NCBI GenBank assembly: GCA_963457665.1
Contig: OY735225.1
Coordinates: 3,621,086-3,685,085, forward strand
Reading direction: 5' to 3'
Length of the DNA stretch: 64,000 nt
DNA from: Thysanoteuthis rhombus
Lineage: Eukaryota; Mollusca; Cephalopoda; Oegopsida; Thysanoteuthidae
Below the pieces are notes generated by a model that did no database searches, had not been told where the DNA came from, and saw only the letters and a list, made by a program, of their open reading frames with translations. How positions within the stretch are numbered: position 1 is the stretch's first letter; every line of letters starts with the position of its first letter. The position numbers and the translations under genes were made by a program. This document shows, piece by piece, positions 481 to 52,714 of the stretch.

Positions 481-2580
481 GCAAATCCAGGGGGAATTCT
501 AGAAAAAACCAAACAAAAATCGTTTTTGTAGAAATGAGGAGCAAATGTTTGAAATTTTTTACTCCCTTTTTGGGCCTGTGTGCGCGATACATAGCCAGAC
601 AGCTAGCTTAACTTGGAAACTGAAGAAACCTATTTTGACAGTTTTATTTGACTGTCTCTTATCAAACCGTCGGATTACTGAATCGATAAGGAGAAAGGTA
701 ATTTTTTTTCAAGAACGACCAAGAAATAAAACCCACGTCTGATGTACTTGAAGATAAATCTCTTTCGAGGAAAGAGACTATGAAAAACAACGGGAAAGAC
801 AATAGACAGAATTGGAGAAAAAAAGAAGCAAAAACAGTATAAAACAAGTTATTGTATCTGTGATCATTCAGACTAATTTCCTCGTCTTTAGAAGAAAATT
901 CACAACGTTTCGACTGCAGGGCTTTTTTGTTAGTCCCCACCAAGAGCTATCGTCCATCATTTCAATGTACAGAAACAAGATCATTGCATTTACCTTTTCT
1001 TGCTAACTAGCGGCTCAATTCGTGGTATTAGATGGGGTAAATTTTATTGGCAATTTGATCTTTGGGAATCAAGACTTTTCAATTTTTCTACCGAACGGTC
1101 AGTCTGTTCCTTGTTCATTATTTTGACTCCATTCCGTAGAGGTTAGTGTATCCACCTTTCTCCTTCCACCATATCTTGAACTTTCTTCACAGATTACAGC
1201 TTTCCGATATTCCTTAGGCATTATTTTTAGAGATGGTAGTGGTGGTCTCAGCCTTATATTTACCCCCTGCAATATCTGTATGTGTACTCGATTTACCTGG
1301 TCGTTTTTCATCTCGTGGAATTTAGACAAGAATCGTAAGACAAGGTAAATATAACCATTCTGATGATGAAAAGATCTATCCATTTCTATTTTGCATTTTT
1401 CTTGGATTTCTCTCACCCTTCTTCAATGTTTACCTTCTAATGCATAGATCTTCAAAAGTTGAATGAATAAACGAAAACGATTAGATAAATTGACTATAAC
1501 TTTGAAAATAGCCATCGTTAGTCAAACTTTGACTTTAAAAAAAAAGCAACACCATCTTAGAAGTACCGAATACGAATTGCCATGTATACAGACTATCTTT
1601 GAACCCCCCACCCAAATTGTTTGTTTACATACCCATTCTGTTATTTAATGTAGTACTACTACTGTAAAGTAAAACTAATTCTAATATTTGGTCATAAATT
1701 CTTTGAATTCATAGTTCGTTTTTAAACACGTTCTGTTAGAAAAGGTAGTGTTATTACTTTGCATTACTAAAAAATCATTTAATTGAAACTCAAATACTTC
1801 CGCGAATTTCGTCACGCGGATTTGTAAATGAATAATATAAAGTGAGTCGTTTGAATCACAGAGAGAGAGAGAGGAAAAAATCACGATTGTGATCGCGTGC
1901 ATGATATCATATGAGTTGAACTGAATCTAAAATCATATCGTCCCACGACCAATATAAAATGTACCAGCAACAAGCGACGTTTGGACGTCGAACCGTTTCC
2001 GTGTTGCAAAGTGAGGAAATTGGAGTTTCAATCTGGGCGCTGATCAGAAGACACTAATACTGAACTGTCACCGAACATGGCGCGTGTAATTGCGCGGGAA
2101 GGCGGACCAGGAGACAGACCAGAGCAGCGGACTAAAAGATTGAGACGTGATCGCGAGGGATGGAAGGAAATACAGAAAAAGAGTGTGGGGAGAGAAAAGG
2201 GGGGGAGGGAAAGAGACCAGGATGGTTACGAGCAAGGTCGATATTGCCTATTCTTCCAATCAAATCTACGCATCTTTAATCAGAACTGATTCATAGCACT
2301 GGCCAGTCACATGCGGTCACCTTCGGTCGAAAAGGCCATGACGTTAGGTTTTTGCTTCATTTGATAATCACCATGGCTATTTTTCACAGACACGGAATTT
2401 GTTTATTTCTTCTGTCTTCTATACCAAGAAAATTAGAATTCATTTAGTAAAAAAAAAACCCAAACTCTTGGTCAGACAGCAAACATACTTACAGTGAAAG
2501 CGTTAATGCTTAGATGTAAACGAACTGATAGTTTTGTTCTGAATTTTCTGAGATGAGGACTAATCATTTTTGGGACAGTT

Positions 2581-2850: not shown

Positions 2851-2905
2851 CACACTGACTAATGTTCTCATATTGGTCTTTATAGTTACTGAGAATGACG
2901 GACAC

Positions 2906-2965
2906 CTGAAGAAGGCTGGAGGGTACAATGGCCGAAACATTGTGGTGATAACAATCAAGATAAGG
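2906..2965 (+). repeat. Hammerhead-like module, family D copy
   Basis: Reads CTGAAGA, then a GGCT..GGCC stem, then GAAAC, then ATTGT-(7 nt)-ACAAT. At 31115-31194 (minus strand) the second hairpin is GTTGT-(7 nt)-ACAAC, so one stem pair differs by a compensatory change. See the findings for the ribozyme hypothesis. Confidence 0.5.
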
Positions 2966-3229
2966 ACTCTAACTATTGCGCTACACCAGATGCCCTCTAT
3001 CCAACCTGCATAATTTTGAATGACTAATCATATATATTGATCTGAGTGACATCTAACGTTCTCTTTGGCTAGATTCCGTCGTACCAATTTGAAAACAAAA
3101 GGGCAAGCTGAAATAAACATAATATATCCGTACCTCGCATAAATTCATCACCGTAGCCTGCGCAAGTACCATAACTAGTTATCGGGAAAGTTATCTAGAT
3201 AAATTATTTAAAAAATGCTGGCAGATGAT

Positions 3230-9234: not shown

Positions 9235-9617
9235 AACCTAACTAAACGATTGATCTCCAAACTGAGAATCATGCAACATGTACATGAGAGAACCATGTCC
9301 AACATCACATGAGATCACAAAACAGCGCATTACATAAAAAAAAAACAAAACAGATCTCACAAAATCTATCAATAAAAACTCTAATGGCAGTGGGCTGGTC
9401 ATGTTGCAAGAATGTTACAACTGCTTGACATCATGATTCCCAGCATGGATCACATGATCATATGCGAAACTGTGGACGATAGAAAATAAGACGATGTGAC
9501 GAATTAGACAAGTTCAGAATGTACTGGATCCACGACGCCCATGATAGAAAGGTTTAGTTTATCTTGCAAAAGGTCTATGTCCAACGACGGACGTTAAAAG
9601 CCTGATGATAATGATAG
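9235..9617 (+). pseudogene. RTE-type LINE, 5'-truncated 3' end
   Basis: The coding remnant is frameshifted. Recognisable nucleotide blocks encode the C-terminal W-A-G-H-V/A-A-R-M segment (gggctggtcatgttgcaaga at 9393-9412) and the LGKVYVQRRTLK-like end (ggtctatgtccaacgacgga), followed by a gatgataatgat tail. The copy contains stops, so it is dead. Confidence 0.85.
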
Positions 9618-9799
9618 TAGTTATTTAGTTTTGTGCAGACAACTTTTTTTTGTCGGTGAGGATCAGTCAATTGAAATAATTATCTCGCTTCAGTATCAAA
9701 CAGTTGTAGAAGAAATAATTCACGTTTTGATCTGGGAACAACGCAATCCATAGATGTTCATAATTTTTCATCGATATCAATGGTGAGTTTTAAATTACA

Positions 9800-11379: not shown

Positions 11380-11755
11380 ATTTTACTTCCTGTGTGCAGA
11401 GCAGCTTGCCAAAATTGTCTTGTAAAATAAGTTTCCGTCCGTCGTGCGGAACTGTGGCATCGAATTATTTTGGTTACTCTTTTTTTTTTTCTGTCAGTGA
11501 TGCCAATTTAGATATTCAATATCTAGAGTCAAATCTAAAATTATACATAAGAGATCTAAAAATTGAAGTTTGTTTTTGCTATCCATTTGTATTCGATTTC
11601 TCGAGAATCGCTGATCCAAACAACTGCAAACTCGACACTGCAATGTATTATGTGTTGACTAATATATATATATGTTGAATATCTCCGTACAGTGGCTAGT
11701 TGTCGAGTTATCTCTGTGAATACAGACACGCAAGCACACTCACAGGGATTTCTTA
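11380..11755 (+). repeat. Dispersed repeat, family E copy 2 (most complete)
   Basis: Contains the agcagcttgccaaaattgtc and cgtcgtgcggaac modules, then an AT-rich middle, then ctcgagaatcgctgatccaa and gtgttgactaatatatatat, ending with tagttgtcgagttatctctg and a CA-rich tail. The 38-kb copy has the same order but is split by a LINE. The 94-codon frame inside (11394-11678) is a repeat frame, not a gene. Confidence 0.7.
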
Positions 11756-20549: not shown

Positions 20550-20812
20550 TGTTTTTAAGAAAAGTATATATGTTAAGGAAAGGATATATGATCCAACAGA
20601 ATAATCATAAATTGTGTTATATTATATTGAAACTCTCATTCAAAATGATGTCCCGTTATTACATGTTGAATGTATCATTTGGCTCGGACAACGTTGATAG
20701 AATGAACAATCAAAGAAAATGGGACTGCTGTAGGGGTCGAACCTGTGACTGATAAGGTAAGCTACTTCAACGTAGCATTGCTCTTATCACTGAGCTAAAC
20801 TGTCCCTGGGAA
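20550..20812 (-). mobile_element. tRNA-derived SINE, copy 1
   Basis: On the minus strand, a head with A box (tagctcagtgataagagc) and B box (caggttcgacccct) is followed by the body tttctttgattgttcattc, then aataacgggacatcatttt, and an AT-rich 3' end. The copy at 31953-32190 has the same head, body and tail order, which defines the family. Octopus and squid are known to carry several tRNA-derived SINE families; I cannot assign this one by name. Confidence 0.85.
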
Positions 20813-21110: not shown

Positions 21111-21855
21111 AGAGGTATACACTCTCTGAACGGTTGCTAGTTTCTTTATAAAATGCATTGGACCTAAGTAAGAATGTGACTTTTACCTTTTTTTTTCTTT
21201 TTTGACCTTCACCCAAATTTCAATGTGGGAAATGAAGTTTCTGTTTGTACGATATTCCTTTCATATTTATCCTTTCAAAATCTAAGATAAACAACCCCTG
21301 CACCCCCCCTTACGAAATCTGTGTCTTCCCATGAAAATGTAGGCCAGGATGTCACGTGTTTTTGAGCATGGTGTTATCAAATCTTTTCCGCTAACAGCTT
21401 TTTTGTCCTTCTTTGTCTCCCGTCTTCAACTACTATGAATTCATAGACCCAACATTTCGATTCCCAAATTCTTCGCAAAGTACACAGCCTAAGAGCTCCC
21501 TGTGGTGCCTGGATATTGTCAACTTAAAAAAAATATTTCCTGAACTAGGCTCAGTTTGAGATAAATCCGCAAATATGAGGCATTCTGTGAGGATCAAAGT
21601 CAATACAGTAATTATGATGATGATGATAATAACAATAATTATAATAATCAGAAATTCTGACTGGAATAGGCACAGAGAGTACATTCGTTTGAACACTGGG
21701 ATAAAGACAATGAAACCCGTCTGTATTAATCAATGTATAATAGTAACAAAGCGTTGTATCAGAAATACAAAAAGAGGCAGGGATACAGTGGTTGAAACGT
21801 TGTGATAAAGACAAGAATACTATTTGGAAAGACAGTATGATATTGATATTTCATA

Positions 21856-22265
21856 ATCATCATCAGCAGCTTTTTAGCATTCGTCGTTGGACGTAAACCT
21901 TCCTCAAGATTCTATTATGGGCATCGCAGAACCAGTATATTCTGAACTTGTCTTGTATATTACACCATCTTATTTTTTGCCGGCCATAGTTTGGATATGA
22001 TCTTGGAGGATCCACGTTGTGAATCTTGATATCCAGCGGTTGACTGAGATTCTAGCAACATGACCGACCCAATGCTATTTCAGTTGTCTAATGCTTTCTA
22101 TGATATCTCGGACTCCTGTTTGCTTTTAATAACATACTGTGCTGTCTTGTGATATCTCCTTGTGATGTTGAGCAGGATGCTCTCATGCACCTTCTCAATC
22201 TTTAGGTCAGCTTCCTTGTTTCTGCTTCAGCTTTATAGGTGACAGCTTCCGAGTTACTTCCCTTT
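21856..22265 (-). pseudogene. RTE-type LINE, 3' end
   Basis: On the + strand it begins with the reversed GAT tail (catcatcagcagc) and cgtcgttggacgtaaacctt, then the complement of the W-A-G-H-V-A-R segment, upstream to the complement of a Tyr-Gly-Ala-Glu-like region. It is frameshifted and 5'-truncated. Confidence 0.8.
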
Positions 22266-22496: not shown

Positions 22497-22536
22497 ATCT
22501 GACGAAGGCCCGAGGGGACATGACCGAAACTTTGGA
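22497..22536 (+). repeat. Hammerhead-like module, family D copy
   Basis: Contains CTGACGA, then AGGCCC...GACC, then GAAAC in the same spacing as at 2906-2965. The hairpin after GAAAC is not obvious here. Confidence 0.4.
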
Positions 22537-25704: not shown

Positions 25705-26370
25705 GTATATGTATGAAGCTCAGTGAAACAAAAGTCATGTACAACAATTATATTGAAGACAAAGACACATCAATCCGAATTGAAGAAGCAGAACTAGAGA
25801 AAGTAGACTGCTATATCTACCTAGGGGAACTAATATCTATTGAATCTTCAAAAGGAGAAGAAATCAAGTGAAGAATAACTCTAAGTTGGTAAGCTGTCGT
25901 TAGAGCAAGCTCAACCATCTAGACCAAGAAAATCCCATCAGTCCTAAAAAGAAAGGTATACAACCAATGCAACCTCCTGATAGTCACCCATGGAGCTGAA
26001 ACATGGAACCAAACCAAAAGATTGACCCTCAAAATGAGAACCATACTGCCTGCACTGGAGAGAATTGTGCTCAACATCATATGAAGAGATCACAAGACAG
26101 TACAGTAAATTAGGGAAAAAAACAGGAATCAGAGATATCATTGTATCTATTGAATTCAAACTACAACGGGCTGGTCATGTAGCAAGAATGTCCTACAAGC
26201 GCTGGACTCAAACCGAGGATCCCCAGAGATCAAATGCAAAACTGTGGTCGGCGGAATAAGGTGGCGTGACGAACTAAACAAGTTAAGAAAGTATTGGCTC
26301 TGCAACGCCATGATAGAAATGTCTGGCGGATCTTGGTTCATGTTCTACGACGGACGCTAAAGAACTTGAT
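25705..26370 (+). pseudogene. RTE-type LINE, longest reverse-transcriptase remnant
   Basis: Three-frame reading recovers a near-continuous reverse-transcriptase C-terminus: LSETKVMYNNYIEDK, then KVDCYIYLGELIS, KIPSVLKRKVYNQCN, VTHGAETWNQTKRLTLKM, then the GHVARMSYKRWTQ segment and a K-L-x-KY-WL-like end. This is the endonuclease/reverse-transcriptase type annotated as RTE in many invertebrates. Several stops and frameshifts mark it as dead; the endonuclease and catalytic reverse-transcriptase domains are missing. Confidence 0.9.
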
Positions 26371-30798: not shown

Positions 30799-31060
30799 AT
30801 CCTAATTCTGAAATAAGGAATCACGCAAGCTCGATTGGACTGGACACACCATGCCCGTTTTTTTTTGTGTATCATTGATGGATGCCCTTGATGTATATGT
30901 TACGGCTGTTTGGGCCATTTTCAACATCCAAATCGTTAAACCGTCAACGTCCAGCAAGCGTTTTCAGGACTGAGCCTATCTTGATGATCCCTTTTTACAG
31001 CAAGAAGGTGGGATATAATCTAATGAAGAAAATTCATGTACAGAGTAGCGGGAAATTAAG

Positions 31061-31483
31061 GAATCCTGGCATAGTGTTTCTCTGAATTTTTGAGATGAGG
31101 TATTATCATTATTTCTATTATTGTTTGGACTATCCTCATCTTGGTTGTTTTCCATACAACGTTTCGGCCATTGTACTCTACGGCCTTCATCAGGTATCAT
31201 TTGGTAAGTGTGGTGGAAGTAACGAGCCGAGCCCTTTATTTAACCGACGGGGGTTTATAGACCACACTCCCCTCTTAGCAGTAGTGGTATTTTCGAATTA
31301 TCTCACACTGGGATTGAATCTAGAACCATTAGATTACTTGCAGCAATTCTGTCCGACTCTCTAACCACTACACCATGTATCCATGTACCTGATTAAGGTC
31401 GTAGAGTACAACAGCCGAAACGTTTTATGGAAAACAACTAGGATGAGGATAGTCTTAACAATAATAGAGAGAATCCTGGCATA
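31061..31483 (-). mobile_element. Inverted-arm retroposon-like insertion with tRNA-like core
   Basis: A perfect 13-bp direct repeat (GAATCCTGGCATA at 31061-31073 and 31471-31483) brackets a 397-bp segment. Inside are two 80-bp inverted arms, 31115-31194 and 31388-31467, differing by 9 mismatches and no gaps by hand alignment. Each arm carries the CTGATGA/..GAAAC module. The 193-bp centre holds a tRNA-like sequence on the minus strand (A box tggtgtagtggttagagag, B box tagattcaatccc). A 13-bp duplication is typical of LINE-mobilised retroposons. The 31081-31114 end resembles 2539-2571 next to family E. Confidence 0.7.
31300..31385 (-). repeat. tRNA-like (Pol III promoter-like) segment
   Basis: The minus strand begins ggatacatggtgtagtggtt and carries B-box agattcaatccc about 40 nt later. 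It lacks a clean acceptor stem, so it is a tRNA-derived promoter of a SINE rather than a tRNA gene. Confidence 0.55.
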
Positions 31484-31952
31484 ATCGAAAGTCATCGAAG
31501 GTGCTGCCACAGGTGCAGTGATGTTGGGGAGGTCATACACTTGCACTGATAAAGGAGACGTGGCGTATCGTACGTGCCCTTTCCCTCGGTGAGTGTGCGT
31601 CAGACCCAGACCTCAACCACCCCCCTGCATTAACCACCCATTCGTTTGCACTAATTGATTGAACTTGATGACAATCGATTCCATGTAGATCTGTTGTGGG
31701 GGGGAAACAAAACATTTACTGATGTCCTGAAAGACCCATTTGTCGCGTGCTTCGCTGAAGAGGGGATCCTTTGAAAGAAAAAAAATAAAAATCGATCACA
31801 ACAAAAATGCTTGACACGTCGTAACCTGTGAAAAGCTGGTAATAGGTCTAGGCTATATGGGAAATGTAGACTCGGTTTTAAACTGCTCATTAAGTATTTT
31901 GTAATCAGTGCAAAATACATATGATTTATGCATTTTGCCTTCACCTTTCTGG

Positions 31953-32183
31953 CGGGCTGTTTAGCTTTAGCTCAATGGATAAGAGCGACGCTCCGTTGAA
32001 GCTGTTACCTTATTAGATGCGGGTTCAATTCCTGCTGCAACCCCATTTTTCTTTGATTGTTTATTCTATTTACGCTGTATAGGCTGAGTGACTCATCCTC
32101 TGTGTAACAACGGGACGTAATTTCAAATAGTTTCAAAAATATTGTCGGATTGTATATCCATTTCTTAATAATAACGACAATTA

Positions 32184-36450: not shown

Positions 36451-37271
36451 AGCCTAGTGCCAGACTAAGGTAGGAAGATGGGAATTACTTTCAATTAGTC
36501 AACCCTAAAAAGCATAGAATATAGTACCTATGTTACCAAGACCAATCTGTAAGACCATTTGCAGGCAATATCAACGACATGAGAAATGATGAGAAACTAT
36601 TTTCATTTTTCGCCCTATGATAAATCATGATTTTTAATTACTGATTTTTGCCTAGTCTCCTCAATCAATAACATCTTCTATTAATTGAAATTAATGACAT
36701 CTTTTAGTAATTGAAAGTTATAATCACTGGGATAAGTTTCAATTCCCAAAAGGGGAGACAAATCCACCATGCAATAAACAATCAATCAAATAAATGAGAA
36801 TATTTTTTCAATGAGTTTTCCCCCTTCCCAATGAATTATAGGACAATTATAACAATCGTCTCATATATAATGGACATTTGTCTAACCTCTGTCACGACAT
36901 ATCTTCCTGAAAATTGCGTTTGACCCCGAAAAAACGGTTTTAAACTTTAGATACTTCACTCTGGTTACATTTAATTCATCTTTAATATATAAAATATATC
37001 CTAAATTTTAGATATTTATCTGAAGAGTGTAGATATTTCTAGGTGTTTCAAAGTGTTTTCAATTCAACTTTAAAAGTAAACTTGAAGATAAAGTTGGCCA
37101 CACTGCCCTTGTCAGATCTCCACACTAGAAACGAACTAGCACATCTAGGGTCTGACTTTCAGGTTTGTTTTTGATTAACAAACTGAACGAATATCTCATC
37201 AAACTCAATATAAGATTCCAAGAGAAACAACTGGCATTGCCCAGTTTTTTAAATATCTAAAATGAATGACT

Positions 37272-37830
37272 CATCACCATCATCAACCTTTTAGCGTCTG
37301 TCGTTGAACATAGACCCTCCCTAAGATCCGCCAGACTTCTCTATCGTGGGTGTCGCAGAGCCAATACTTTTTGTTCTTGTGTAGTTCGTCACGCCATTTT
37401 ATATTTTGTCGACTACGGTTTCGCATATGATCTTTGGGGATCCACGTTGTGAGTCGTGATTTCCACCGGTTGTCTGTCATTCTCATGACATAACCAGCCC
37501 ATTGCCATTTGAGTTTTTCTAATGAATTCTATGATATCTTGGACTCTTGTTTTTTTTTCTTCCATATACTGTACTGTCTTATGATATCTCCAACTAATGT
37601 TGACCACGATTCTCTCTGGTGCACGTTGCATGGTTCTCAATTTGAGGGTCAATCTTTTGTCTGGGTTCCATGTTTTAACTCCTCAGGTGATTATCAACCG
37701 GATGCGTTAGTTATATCCCCTCCTTTTGAGGACTGACCGGATTTTCTTGTTCTTGAAGGATGGGCTTGCTCTACCGAAAACTTACCAGCATAGAGCGATT
37801 CTCCGCTTGATTCTTTCTTCTTTTGAGGAT
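37272..37830 (-). pseudogene. RTE-type LINE, 3' end (best-kept C-terminus)
   Basis: The minus-strand frame reads MRMTDNRWKSRLTTW, then KWRDELHKNKKYWL and DREVWRILGRVYVQRQTLKG, ending at a reversed GAT tail at 37272. Upstream minus-strand blocks encode QRAPERIVVNISWRYHKT, then an IIEFIRKTQM-like stretch. One or more frameshifts separate the two halves. Confidence 0.9.
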
Positions 37831-38070
37831 TTCATGAAGAAAAAAAAATGGTGCCCAAATTGGCCCAAGTGATTTCATCAGAATCGTTGCTTCCTTGCAA
37901 TTAAGGGAATGGTTCTCCTTTTGTCTTTTACAAAAGTTTGCATGATTACAATCATGAATGAATAAAACAAATATAAAAGCTAAAATTAGATTCTACTCTT
38001 ACACTATTTCTAATTTTCAGGGAAATCCTTTTGTTCAAAATACCGTACTAATTTATATAACCTAGACACT

Positions 38071-38790
38071 ACCCGTTCCAAAGGTGCATGCTTGGAAGGG
38101 TCCGGATTTTGTTATGCGGCCCAGCCCTCATAATTGTCATAAAAGCAATTTCTGTCAGTCGTAAAGAACTACAGCATCGAATTATTTCGGTTGCTTCTAT
38201 TAGTGTCGCCAATTAATCGAAAGTAAGGTCTATTGCGAATTTAGATATTATGCTCAGCCTCACACGGAGAGGCCACAAGATAGCACAATACACCCAGGAG
38301 AAGACAGGAGTCAGGGACATCATAGAATCCATTGAAAATCTCAATTGGCAATGGGCTGGCCATGTTGCAAGAATGGCAGATAACCGATGAGAGGGATCCC
38401 CAGAGATCACGTGAGCCATCGAGACCGGCAGAGTATTAGATAAAGAGACGAGCAAGACGAATACAGAAAGTACTTGCTCCGCAACGCCCATGATAGAAAA
38501 GTGTGACGGATCCTGGGGAAGGTCTATGTCCAACGACGGACGTTTAAAGACTGATGATGATGATGATATCTAGATTTAGATCTATAATTCTAGTTAAGAT
38601 CTATAATCAGTTGTTTTAAAAACAGTTTTATTACAATTCTCGAGAACCACCGATCAAAACAACTGTAATACCTACTGTGTTCACTAATATATATGGTGAG
38701 TATCAACCCCGTACGAAGACCAGTCGTTGTCGAAGTATGTCAGTACATACATATACACATTCGCACAACCACGCACAGAGGTTTCTCCAA
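38071..38790 (+). repeat. Family E copy 3, split by a LINE insertion
   Basis: The left part is 38071-38250 (ttccaaaggtgcatgcttgg..., then aattgtc and cagcatcgaattatttcggt). The right part is 38567-38790 (tctcgagaaccaccgatcaa, gtgttcactaatatatatgg, a CA-rich end). Compared with 11380-11755 the order is unbroken if the LINE at 38250-38567 is removed. Confidence 0.7.
38250..38567 (+). pseudogene. RTE-type LINE, 5'-truncated insertion inside family E
   Basis: Starts mid-protein at MLSLTRRGHKIAQYTQ, then IIESIENLNWQWAGHVARMA after a frame change, and ends in acgtttaaagactgatgatg with a GAT tail. The sequence atttagat borders both sides, a plausible target-site duplication. Confidence 0.85.
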
Positions 38791-51350: not shown

Positions 51351-52394
51351 TTCTATTTTAACGTACTGTGCTCAGTCCTTCCATGGGAAAATGCGTGAGA
51401 CACACATGAAAATTAAACTCTCACGCATTTTTACACCCAGTTAAAATCAGTAGCTGATATGCCCTGTAACGCAATTTAAGCCAATGTTGGATGGGTAATT
51501 AAAAAAAAAATCTGATGGAGCATGCCCCAGACTCCAACAGAACCCCCCCCCCCTGCGCCAAGTTGTCTTCCTTGCTCATAGAAATTGTTTTGTTGGGGGG
51601 GGGGTATAATTTTTTCACTCCTTCACATTGAGACATGAAAGGTCTGCGTGCGATTTTGTGTATCATGTTATCTCGTATGTTTGTAGGCGGAAAGGCCTGA
51701 ATAATTTCATTTTACGTGTAAAATAAGATCCCACTTTACTCAGAAAAAGTATAAAAATTAGTTCTCGGTTTACGGAACTCATTGATCGTCTTATTAATAC
51801 AATTTTAGAAGCCACTGTAAACGTTGGACTTTTGGTGCTTATGCAATTGTGTGAAAGCAAGAATGGTAGATTTCTACGGTGAAAATCTACCCGGAGTTGT
51901 AACACAAGTTGGCTACCCATGAATAGTAAATTTAAGAGTCAACTGCAAATGACTGAAATTTCAATCATAGCAGTTCTATGGCTCAACTGCAAATGATGGA
52001 AATTTTCATCTGTCACACATATGCAGAGTTACGAACAAAGTGACAGAAAAATAGAGAAAAAAATCGTCTTTGTTTTCAAGTGGAACGGTCCATTGTCAAC
52101 AGAAAATAAATTGTTCAGCTTTCTTATTTACACCAGGGCAGCTAAGCTACCCCTGTCGCAGTTAATGGCAAACATCGTACTAGTCACGCAAAAACAGTCG
52201 TATTCGTATGCTAACTATTTACGAGAGGGTCAGTTTCCAGTGAGACCACTGCTCGTAGCAGTTAATTCGTTGTTACAAGTAAACAAAATTGCCAAAATAT
52301 TACACTCGTGTTCAATGTGAATCCTCTGCTGTCCATTTTGGCTTTTGACATTGACATAGAATGTTTCGAATTGTACACAAAACATGTAACGTGA

Positions 52395-52714
52395 ACCAAA
52401 AAAGAATCGTGTTCAACATCAGATGGACAGATCACAAGACAACACAAAAACATGACATAGCATCCATTAGAAAACTCACTTGGAAATGGGGTGGTCAAAT
52501 GACAAGAATTGCAGACAACCTCTGGACATCATGACCCAAAATGTTGATCTCCAGAGATCATATGCCAAACCTTCGCCAACAAAAAATAAGATGGTGTGAC
52601 GAACTAGACAAGCTTAGAACATATTGACAGCGCTACTCTCTTGATAGAGAGGTGTGGTGAATCTTGGAGAAGGTCTGTCCAACGACGAACGTTTGGAGGC
52701 TGATTATGACAATG
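52395..52714 (+). pseudogene. RTE-type LINE, 3' end immediately upstream of an exon
   Basis: Contains tcgtgttcaacatcagatgg, a ttggaaatggggtggtcaaa block (W-x-W-G-G-Q), acgaactagacaagcttaga and the end aacgacgaacgtttggaggc, then ctgattatgac. It stops about 160 bp before the 32-nt GCH1 exon. Confidence 0.85.

Follow-up and report, generated by a model that had tools for sequence, protein, structure and literature searches.

The segment at 31061-31483 of the window (the whole stretch of 64,000 nucleotides analysed) very probably represents a single insertion from a SINE-like family with many copies, mobilised in trans by the machinery of Penelope-like elements (PLEs). The first-pass annotation had offered two readings, a composite non-autonomous retroelement or a Penelope-like pseudo-terminal repeat pair, and both hold jointly: there are many copies, and they combine a single-ended tail, a target duplication and an inverted second copy. 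SINEs are usually regarded as parasites of LINEs. The present family likely represents a SINE-like class that uses PLE enzymes, not those of LINEs, and whose insertions are built from two cDNAs begun at two points of a stem-loop, one for each cut strand.

The positions of all features are collected in Table 1. The insertion is bracketed by a perfect direct repeat of 13 bp, GAATCCTGGCATA (100% match), as had been noticed earlier. Self-comparison of the window gives an inverted arm pair (31108-31196 and 31386-31474) of 89 nt with 11 mismatches (88% identity, E 9e-27), near the previous hand count of 80 bp with 9 mismatches and likewise ungapped. The outermost arm nucleotides overlap the extension and the duplication; the homologous arm itself spans approximately 31114-31196 and 31386-31468. 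Between the left arm and the left duplication sits an extension of 34-40 nt that had gone unremarked as such, although a resemblance of 31081-31114 to sequence elsewhere in the window had been recorded as a caution. This sequence is part of the PLE-type tail. On the minus strand, the window copy reads in the order A/B-box head, body, left arm and extension, and the centre between the arms measures 192 nt (31194-31385). No open reading frame (ORF) for a reverse transcriptase with a GIY-YIG endonuclease is present in the unit of ~400 bp. The copy is predicted to fold as a long hairpin, with a minimum free energy of -170 kcal/mol.

Table 1. Features of the insertion, its diverged relatives in the window and the loci with an empty counterpart.
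Feature	Position or locus	Strand	Remarks
Target-site duplication, left copy (13 bp)	31061..31073	+	Perfect repeat; other copies have other duplications
PLE-type tail, 34-40 nt, single-ended	31074..31113	-	Recurs at 2528-2571; one per copy
Left arm, PLE pseudo-LTR-like, 3' part of the putative mobile RNA	31114..31193	-	Hammerhead-like core CTGATGA...GAAAC at 31193-31161
Predicted RNA stem-loop	31074..31146	-	No-tail end in the loop, tail end just 3' of the stem
Body of the putative mobile RNA	31194..31299	-	Conserved among copies
Head, Pol III type 2 A box (from 31375) and B box (from 31320)	31300..31385	-	5' end near-constant, ~31385
Right arm, second copy of the 3' part, inverted, truncated at its 5' end, no tail	31386..31470	+	Start differs between copies
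Target-site duplication, right copy (13 bp)	31471..31483	+	Perfect repeat
Tail relative, more diverged	2528..2571	-	82% over 44 columns to 31071-31113
Arm relative, more diverged, core CTGAAGA...GAAAC	2901..2966	+	82% to 31133-31198 (66 nt); 26 open codons in frame 0
Loci with an empty paralogous site	L009, L012, L015, L019, L020, L023, L029, L035, L037, L049		Joined-flank search

The genome from which the window comes (2.73 Gb, 514 contigs) was searched with the whole unit, which gave 4,916 first-look candidates. All 40 that were scored belong to the family, at 100% identity for the window and 85-92% for the other 39. The first-pass annotation had proposed a check for copies with the same boundaries and for copies with different flanking duplications, and both kinds were found. 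Query positions 7-21 through at least 394 are covered by 35 of the 40 scored copies, the window included; four of the remaining five begin at query 41-56, with the tail at the other end or expanded, and one is without a right arm. Two further searches used the centre only (2,232 candidates, 40 scored, 30 fetched) and the arm with the tail (2,467 candidates, 40 scored, 8 examined); candidate counts are not copy counts. The unit profile is matched by 71 of the 71 distinct loci examined (79 minus eight repeated places). The unit is short, many-copy and independently inserted, as is required of a tRNA-derived SINE, and the existence of such a family rules out a single chance capture. Two pattern scans of a viral contig collection gave 0 matches.

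Direct repeats reach a target-site duplication (TSD) score of at least 8 in 28 of the 30 first copies, against 4.0% of 870 crossed flank pairs. With a stricter threshold (exact matches of at least 9), 18 of 30 copies qualify, compared to 4.1% of the crossed pairs. Among the loci with a second arm, 49 of 60 score at least 8 (3.5% of 2,000 crossed pairs) and 11 fall short of it; for the unpaired loci, the count is 2 of 11. For the 45 duplications that score at least 9, the median length is 13 bp (range 9-17, apart from one of 25) and the A+T content 73%. Moreover, an uninterrupted paralogous (empty) site was found for 10 of the 51 joined loci with a TSD score of at least 8 (Table 1). One of these sites, that of L020, lies in the window itself (2578-2730), where it aligns over 153 bp without gaps at 75% identity. 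Inverted arms that adjoin direct repeats could also be those of a MITE-like DNA transposon with long terminal inverted repeats. The chance of this is practically negligible, as the termini are unequal (a single tail, at either end) and both the lengths of the duplications and the inner ends of the arms vary. The median of 13 bp, as well as the Pol III boxes of the head, would also fit a SINE mobilised by a LINE, in which the inverted arms stem from twin priming or a secondary rearrangement and the PLE likeness is due to chance. LINE-mobilised SINEs usually show such duplication lengths and such boxes.

The tail bears on this alternative. When the 71 loci are read on a sense-unit profile, they divide into those with the tail on the full copy only (38), on the second copy only (14), on both (2) and on neither (1), together with five in which one end is unreadable and 11 in which the second copy is undetected. 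The three exceptions were resolved by hand re-reading: the other end of L005 meets the duplication at the no-tail point, L032 shows one tail by BLAST and, in L030, the tail lies past an expanded AAT run. Hence, exactly one tail is found in 55 of 55 readable pairs. A BLAST table of 41 loci (eight repeat other places) gives one tail in 35, none in 5 and two in L071, where the second tail belongs to a separate adjoining copy. In the centre-selected sample (n = 30), where the arms played no part in the choice of loci, 8 pairs carry the tail on the full copy and 11 on the truncated one, with a further pair half unreadable. The remaining 10 loci are without a visible second copy; three of them (L055, L062 and L067) seem by eye to hold a very short one. 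A tail inherited on one side is ruled out, as it occurs at either end.

The RNA of tail and arm is predicted to form a stem-loop (z -3.07, reached in 0 of 200 shuffles), and across 29 copies (L025 omitted) 195 of the 203 cells of its seven-pair stem are paired. The no-tail end falls in the loop, and the tail end lies 3' of the stem. We know of no LINE that gives a single tail at either end, two fixed starts and a hammerhead-like core. A tail at one end, two fixed cDNA starts and such a core are reported for PLEs (PMC3846280, PMC11167929). No poly-A or simple-repeat 3' end was seen in the aligned copies; together with the single tail of each readable pair, which may be at either end, this makes mobilisation by a LINE very unlikely.

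An inverted second copy is present in 60 of the 71 loci, and none is detected on the profile in the other 11. Its extent is variable: by local alignment, the inner end of the right arm takes 15 positions in 30 copies, from -23 to +12 relative to the core (seven at -7), and on the profile 58 of 60 second-copy starts fall within 105-233, the other two being at 2 and 272. The second copy adjoins the near-constant 5' end of the head, often via a few shared bases (by eye). The arms of one insertion are more alike than arms crossed between insertions (0.924 vs. 0.911), and none of 20,000 permutations reached this value. At two subfamily sites, both arms carry the same variant (left 15, right 13, both 13; left 14, right 14, both 12), and the other 13 of the 15 listed variable sites show no clear mirroring. 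None of the 28 private alleles of left arms is shared with the own right arm. This pattern is what would be expected if the template RNA of the second cDNA belonged to the same subfamily and the arms then decayed independently. Mirrored variants could also arise by gene conversion, which would not, however, yield variable arm starts.

These observations also bear on the nature of the mobile unit. An internally deleted, non-autonomous PLE could have captured a SINE once between inherited inverted pseudo-LTRs (pLTRs), the whole 397-bp unit with both arms then serving as the template. Both arms are indeed present in all scored whole-unit matches but one, and captured sequences between solo pLTRs with TSDs are described in Adineta (PMC3846280). 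However, a right arm inherited with the unit would not be expected to start at so many positions, over a wide range in the 60 pairs, nor to be missing on the profile in 11 of 71 loci; the switching of the tail between ends and the mirrored diagnostic sites are likewise at odds with this explanation, which is considered unlikely. The variable start of the right arm and the variants that it has in common with its own left arm indicate that the mobile unit is probably an RNA of ~310 nt. The 397-bp inverted-repeat unit of the first-pass annotation thus gives way to this shorter one, as the right arm is seemingly not inherited.

On the PLE-mobilised reading, the mobile RNA would be the minus strand from ~31385 to 31074, consisting of the head, the body and a PLE-derived 3' part that resembles a PLE pLTR with the start of its ORF and terminates in the stem-loop. 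A PLE reverse transcriptase/endonuclease, acting in trans, would cut both strands of an A+T-rich target, usually 9-17 bp apart, and both cut strands would prime cDNA on the RNA. One cDNA would begin just 3' of the stem, thus including the tail, and the other in the loop, leaving no tail. One of them would reach the 5' end of the RNA, while the other would usually stop early. Joining of the cDNA 3' ends would then produce head-to-head inverted arms, one tail and the target-site duplication.

The left arm contains CTGATGA, a GGCC/GGCC stem II and GAAAC, whereas the core of the right arm is altered (CTGATTA...GAAAC); the module that had been ascribed to both arms is therefore intact in the left one only. 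Rfam returned no match within 31000-31550, up to E = 10, and no hammerhead at the element in this stretch of the window or in 19 loci. A hammerhead stem I was not found by hand. The earlier label "ribozyme-like" stands as a resemblance in core and stem II of the left arm, and the Rfam hammerhead match is absent at the element. An off-element match to the type I hammerhead was obtained at L012:512-557, and it is weak (23.4 bits, below the gathering score of 34). Rfam also matched two copies to a miRNA family, far under the gathering score, for which the long hairpin is probably responsible. A lone hammerhead-like core, CTGACGA...GAAAC, occurs at 22499-22530 of the window, with no long open frame downstream.

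Frame 0 (the frame that starts at the C of CTGATGA and whose steps include an ATG) is open for 40 codons in the left arm and extension and for 27 in the right arm; in the older arm near 2901, the same frame is also open (Table 1). Frame 1 has many stops in each of the three arms, and frame 2 is open in two of three. The openness of frame 0 agrees with a derivation from the start of an ORF, without proving it. The ends of the second copies were also considered as a record of ribozyme cleavage, with 8 of 60 starts at profile 214-233 and a predicted cut after 230. This reading was dropped, since the starts are spread over several nucleotides and short matches to the 5' end of the head could explain them (by eye). 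The core would further suit an animal retrozyme, a hammerhead-bearing tandem repeat whose circular RNA is reinserted, possibly with the help of PLEs, which have been proposed as helpers of animal retrozymes (PMC7761336). Such an origin is highly improbable here: a hammerhead match is lacking at the element, the window contains no tandem array of the unit, and the second-copy starts form no exact peak at the predicted cleavage site.

The head carries an A box and a B box on the minus strand. The window holds two A+B pairs, vs. 0.16 expected from 50 Markov sequences; the other pair (31968-32032) lies within a repeat common to 20627-20799. By pattern, the A+B pair is found in 22 of 30 copies, and conservation across copies is 98% for the B box and 91% for the A box. 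A TTTT run occurs within the putative RNA in 2 of 30 copies. These boxes suggest that the mobile RNA may be transcribed by Pol III. ARAGORN detected no tRNA in the window or in 30 loci (0/30), nor did Rfam at the element (window stretch 31000-31550 and 19 loci). The "tRNA-like centre" of the first reading stands as a resemblance, with A and B boxes and no recognised tRNA fold; hence the element is called SINE-like and not a tRNA SINE. The boxes and the near-constant 5' end suggest, and do not confirm, a tRNA origin of the head. Four loci (L043, L047, L049 and L069) have in common an extra stretch that lies 5' of where the head usually ends and surrounds a GTCCACATGGAC palindrome; this is perhaps another transcription start or a longer subfamily.

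Among known elements, the Penelope elements described in Adineta vaga have pLTRs in inverted orientation, one of which may carry a 31-bp tail at its 3' end; their TSDs measure 8-10 bp in the cases described (some copies are without), and unrelated sequences captured between the pLTRs are reported as well (PMC3846280). The present family shares with them the inverted pLTRs, the one tail, the TSDs, the head-to-head order and the foreign sequence between pLTRs. The Adineta vaga elements contain the reverse transcriptase/endonuclease ORF or occasional captured genes, whereas here a many-copy, ORF-less unit with Pol III boxes is found, and its TSDs (median 13 bp) are longer than those given for Adineta vaga. 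In the Poseidon PLE of Anolis carolinensis (PAc), reverse transcription has two start sites, and the stretch between them constitutes the tail (PMC11167929). The site used most often is within an AC-rich stem-loop and lies 111-118 bp into an ORF whose beginning is at hammerhead stem II, and both target strands are cut and extended, with apparently no difference in start site (PMC11167929). Similarly, the family has a hammerhead-like motif at the putative ORF start and inferred start sites in and beside a stem-loop; on the proposed mechanism, its tail would likewise correspond to the distance between two starts, with both target strands cut and extended. In the window copy, the distance from the start of stem II (31186) to the tail end (31074) is 113 nt, compared to 111-118 in PAc. 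PAc is autonomous and was tested in vitro, whereas the present family is known from insertion scars alone.

tRNA-derived retroposons of octopus were reportedly described by Ohshima and Okada in 1994. They would share a tRNA-type promoter with the present family, possibly in the same host group, and the family may coincide with one of these retroposons. For the Schistosoma element SMalpha, a 1998 paper is said, by its title, to report an active hammerhead. SMalpha is SINE-like, as is the present family, and carries a hammerhead and a tRNA sequence, which the hammerhead-like core and the tRNA-type boxes of the family resemble; the available sections of its accounts describe no PLE tail or inverted second copy (PMC8490949, PMC4918200). 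Animal non-LTR retrozymes are small and non-autonomous, as is the present family, and bear hammerheads, with PLE help proposed (PMC7229834, PMC7761336); they have been termed SINE-like (PMC7761336). The accessible parts of these papers describe tandem hammerheads and circular RNAs and mention neither Pol III boxes nor an inverted scar (PMC7229834, PMC7761336). In octopus, SINEs are abundant and PLEs are present (PMC13282606, PMC8967140).

The component features are thus known separately: a hammerhead in PLE pLTRs, the tail and the captured sequences (PMC3846280, PMC11167929, PMC7761336). Searches of the CC-licensed PMC literature turned up neither a SINE-like family that bears a PLE integration scar nor a SINE family mobilised by PLEs. 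Were a SINE-like family to carry both the 3' end and the integration scar of a PLE, SINE parasitism would extend to a third class of retroelements. PLE mobilisation is poorly understood; the first full-length PLE protein has been purified, and later steps await validation (PMC11167929). If the proposed mechanism is true, the copies document PLE integration as it occurs naturally in a living genome, supplying many natural products in which both strands were apparently primed, the start sites were used one each and the cDNAs were joined variably. The scars, possibly at thousands of sites, would also yield long double-stranded RNA on transcription, and a transcribed hairpin could, speculatively, be relevant to RNA editing or to the small RNAs of the host.

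No autonomous partner PLE was found among 150 scored of 1,161 candidates in the same genome. This search gave seven GIY-YIG matches (L072-L078), decayed and PLE-like by eye; Pfam recognised four of five pieces as GIY-YIG and did not recognise the lone reverse transcriptase-like piece. An arm beside the endonuclease was seen at 0 of the 7 loci, two of which hold N. One profile match in the vicinity of a GIY-YIG locus (L080) proved to be a copy of the family, at a distance of some 3.6 kb, and not a partner, and the matches of L072 and L079, which are the same place, are at chance level (E 0.41). The lone arm-like pieces in the fetched flanks have no long open frame downstream. Within the window, the diverged tail and arm at 2528-2966 (Table 1) keep the same relative orientation around a different repeat (2574-2729), which resembles 11392-11484 and 38065-38214. 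It may be a different body joined to the same PLE 3' end, and a duplication was not seen. The window also contains an abundant dispersed repeat, 65-77% alike, at 9235-9621, 21853-22190, 25843-26363, 37271-38566 and 52380-52709.
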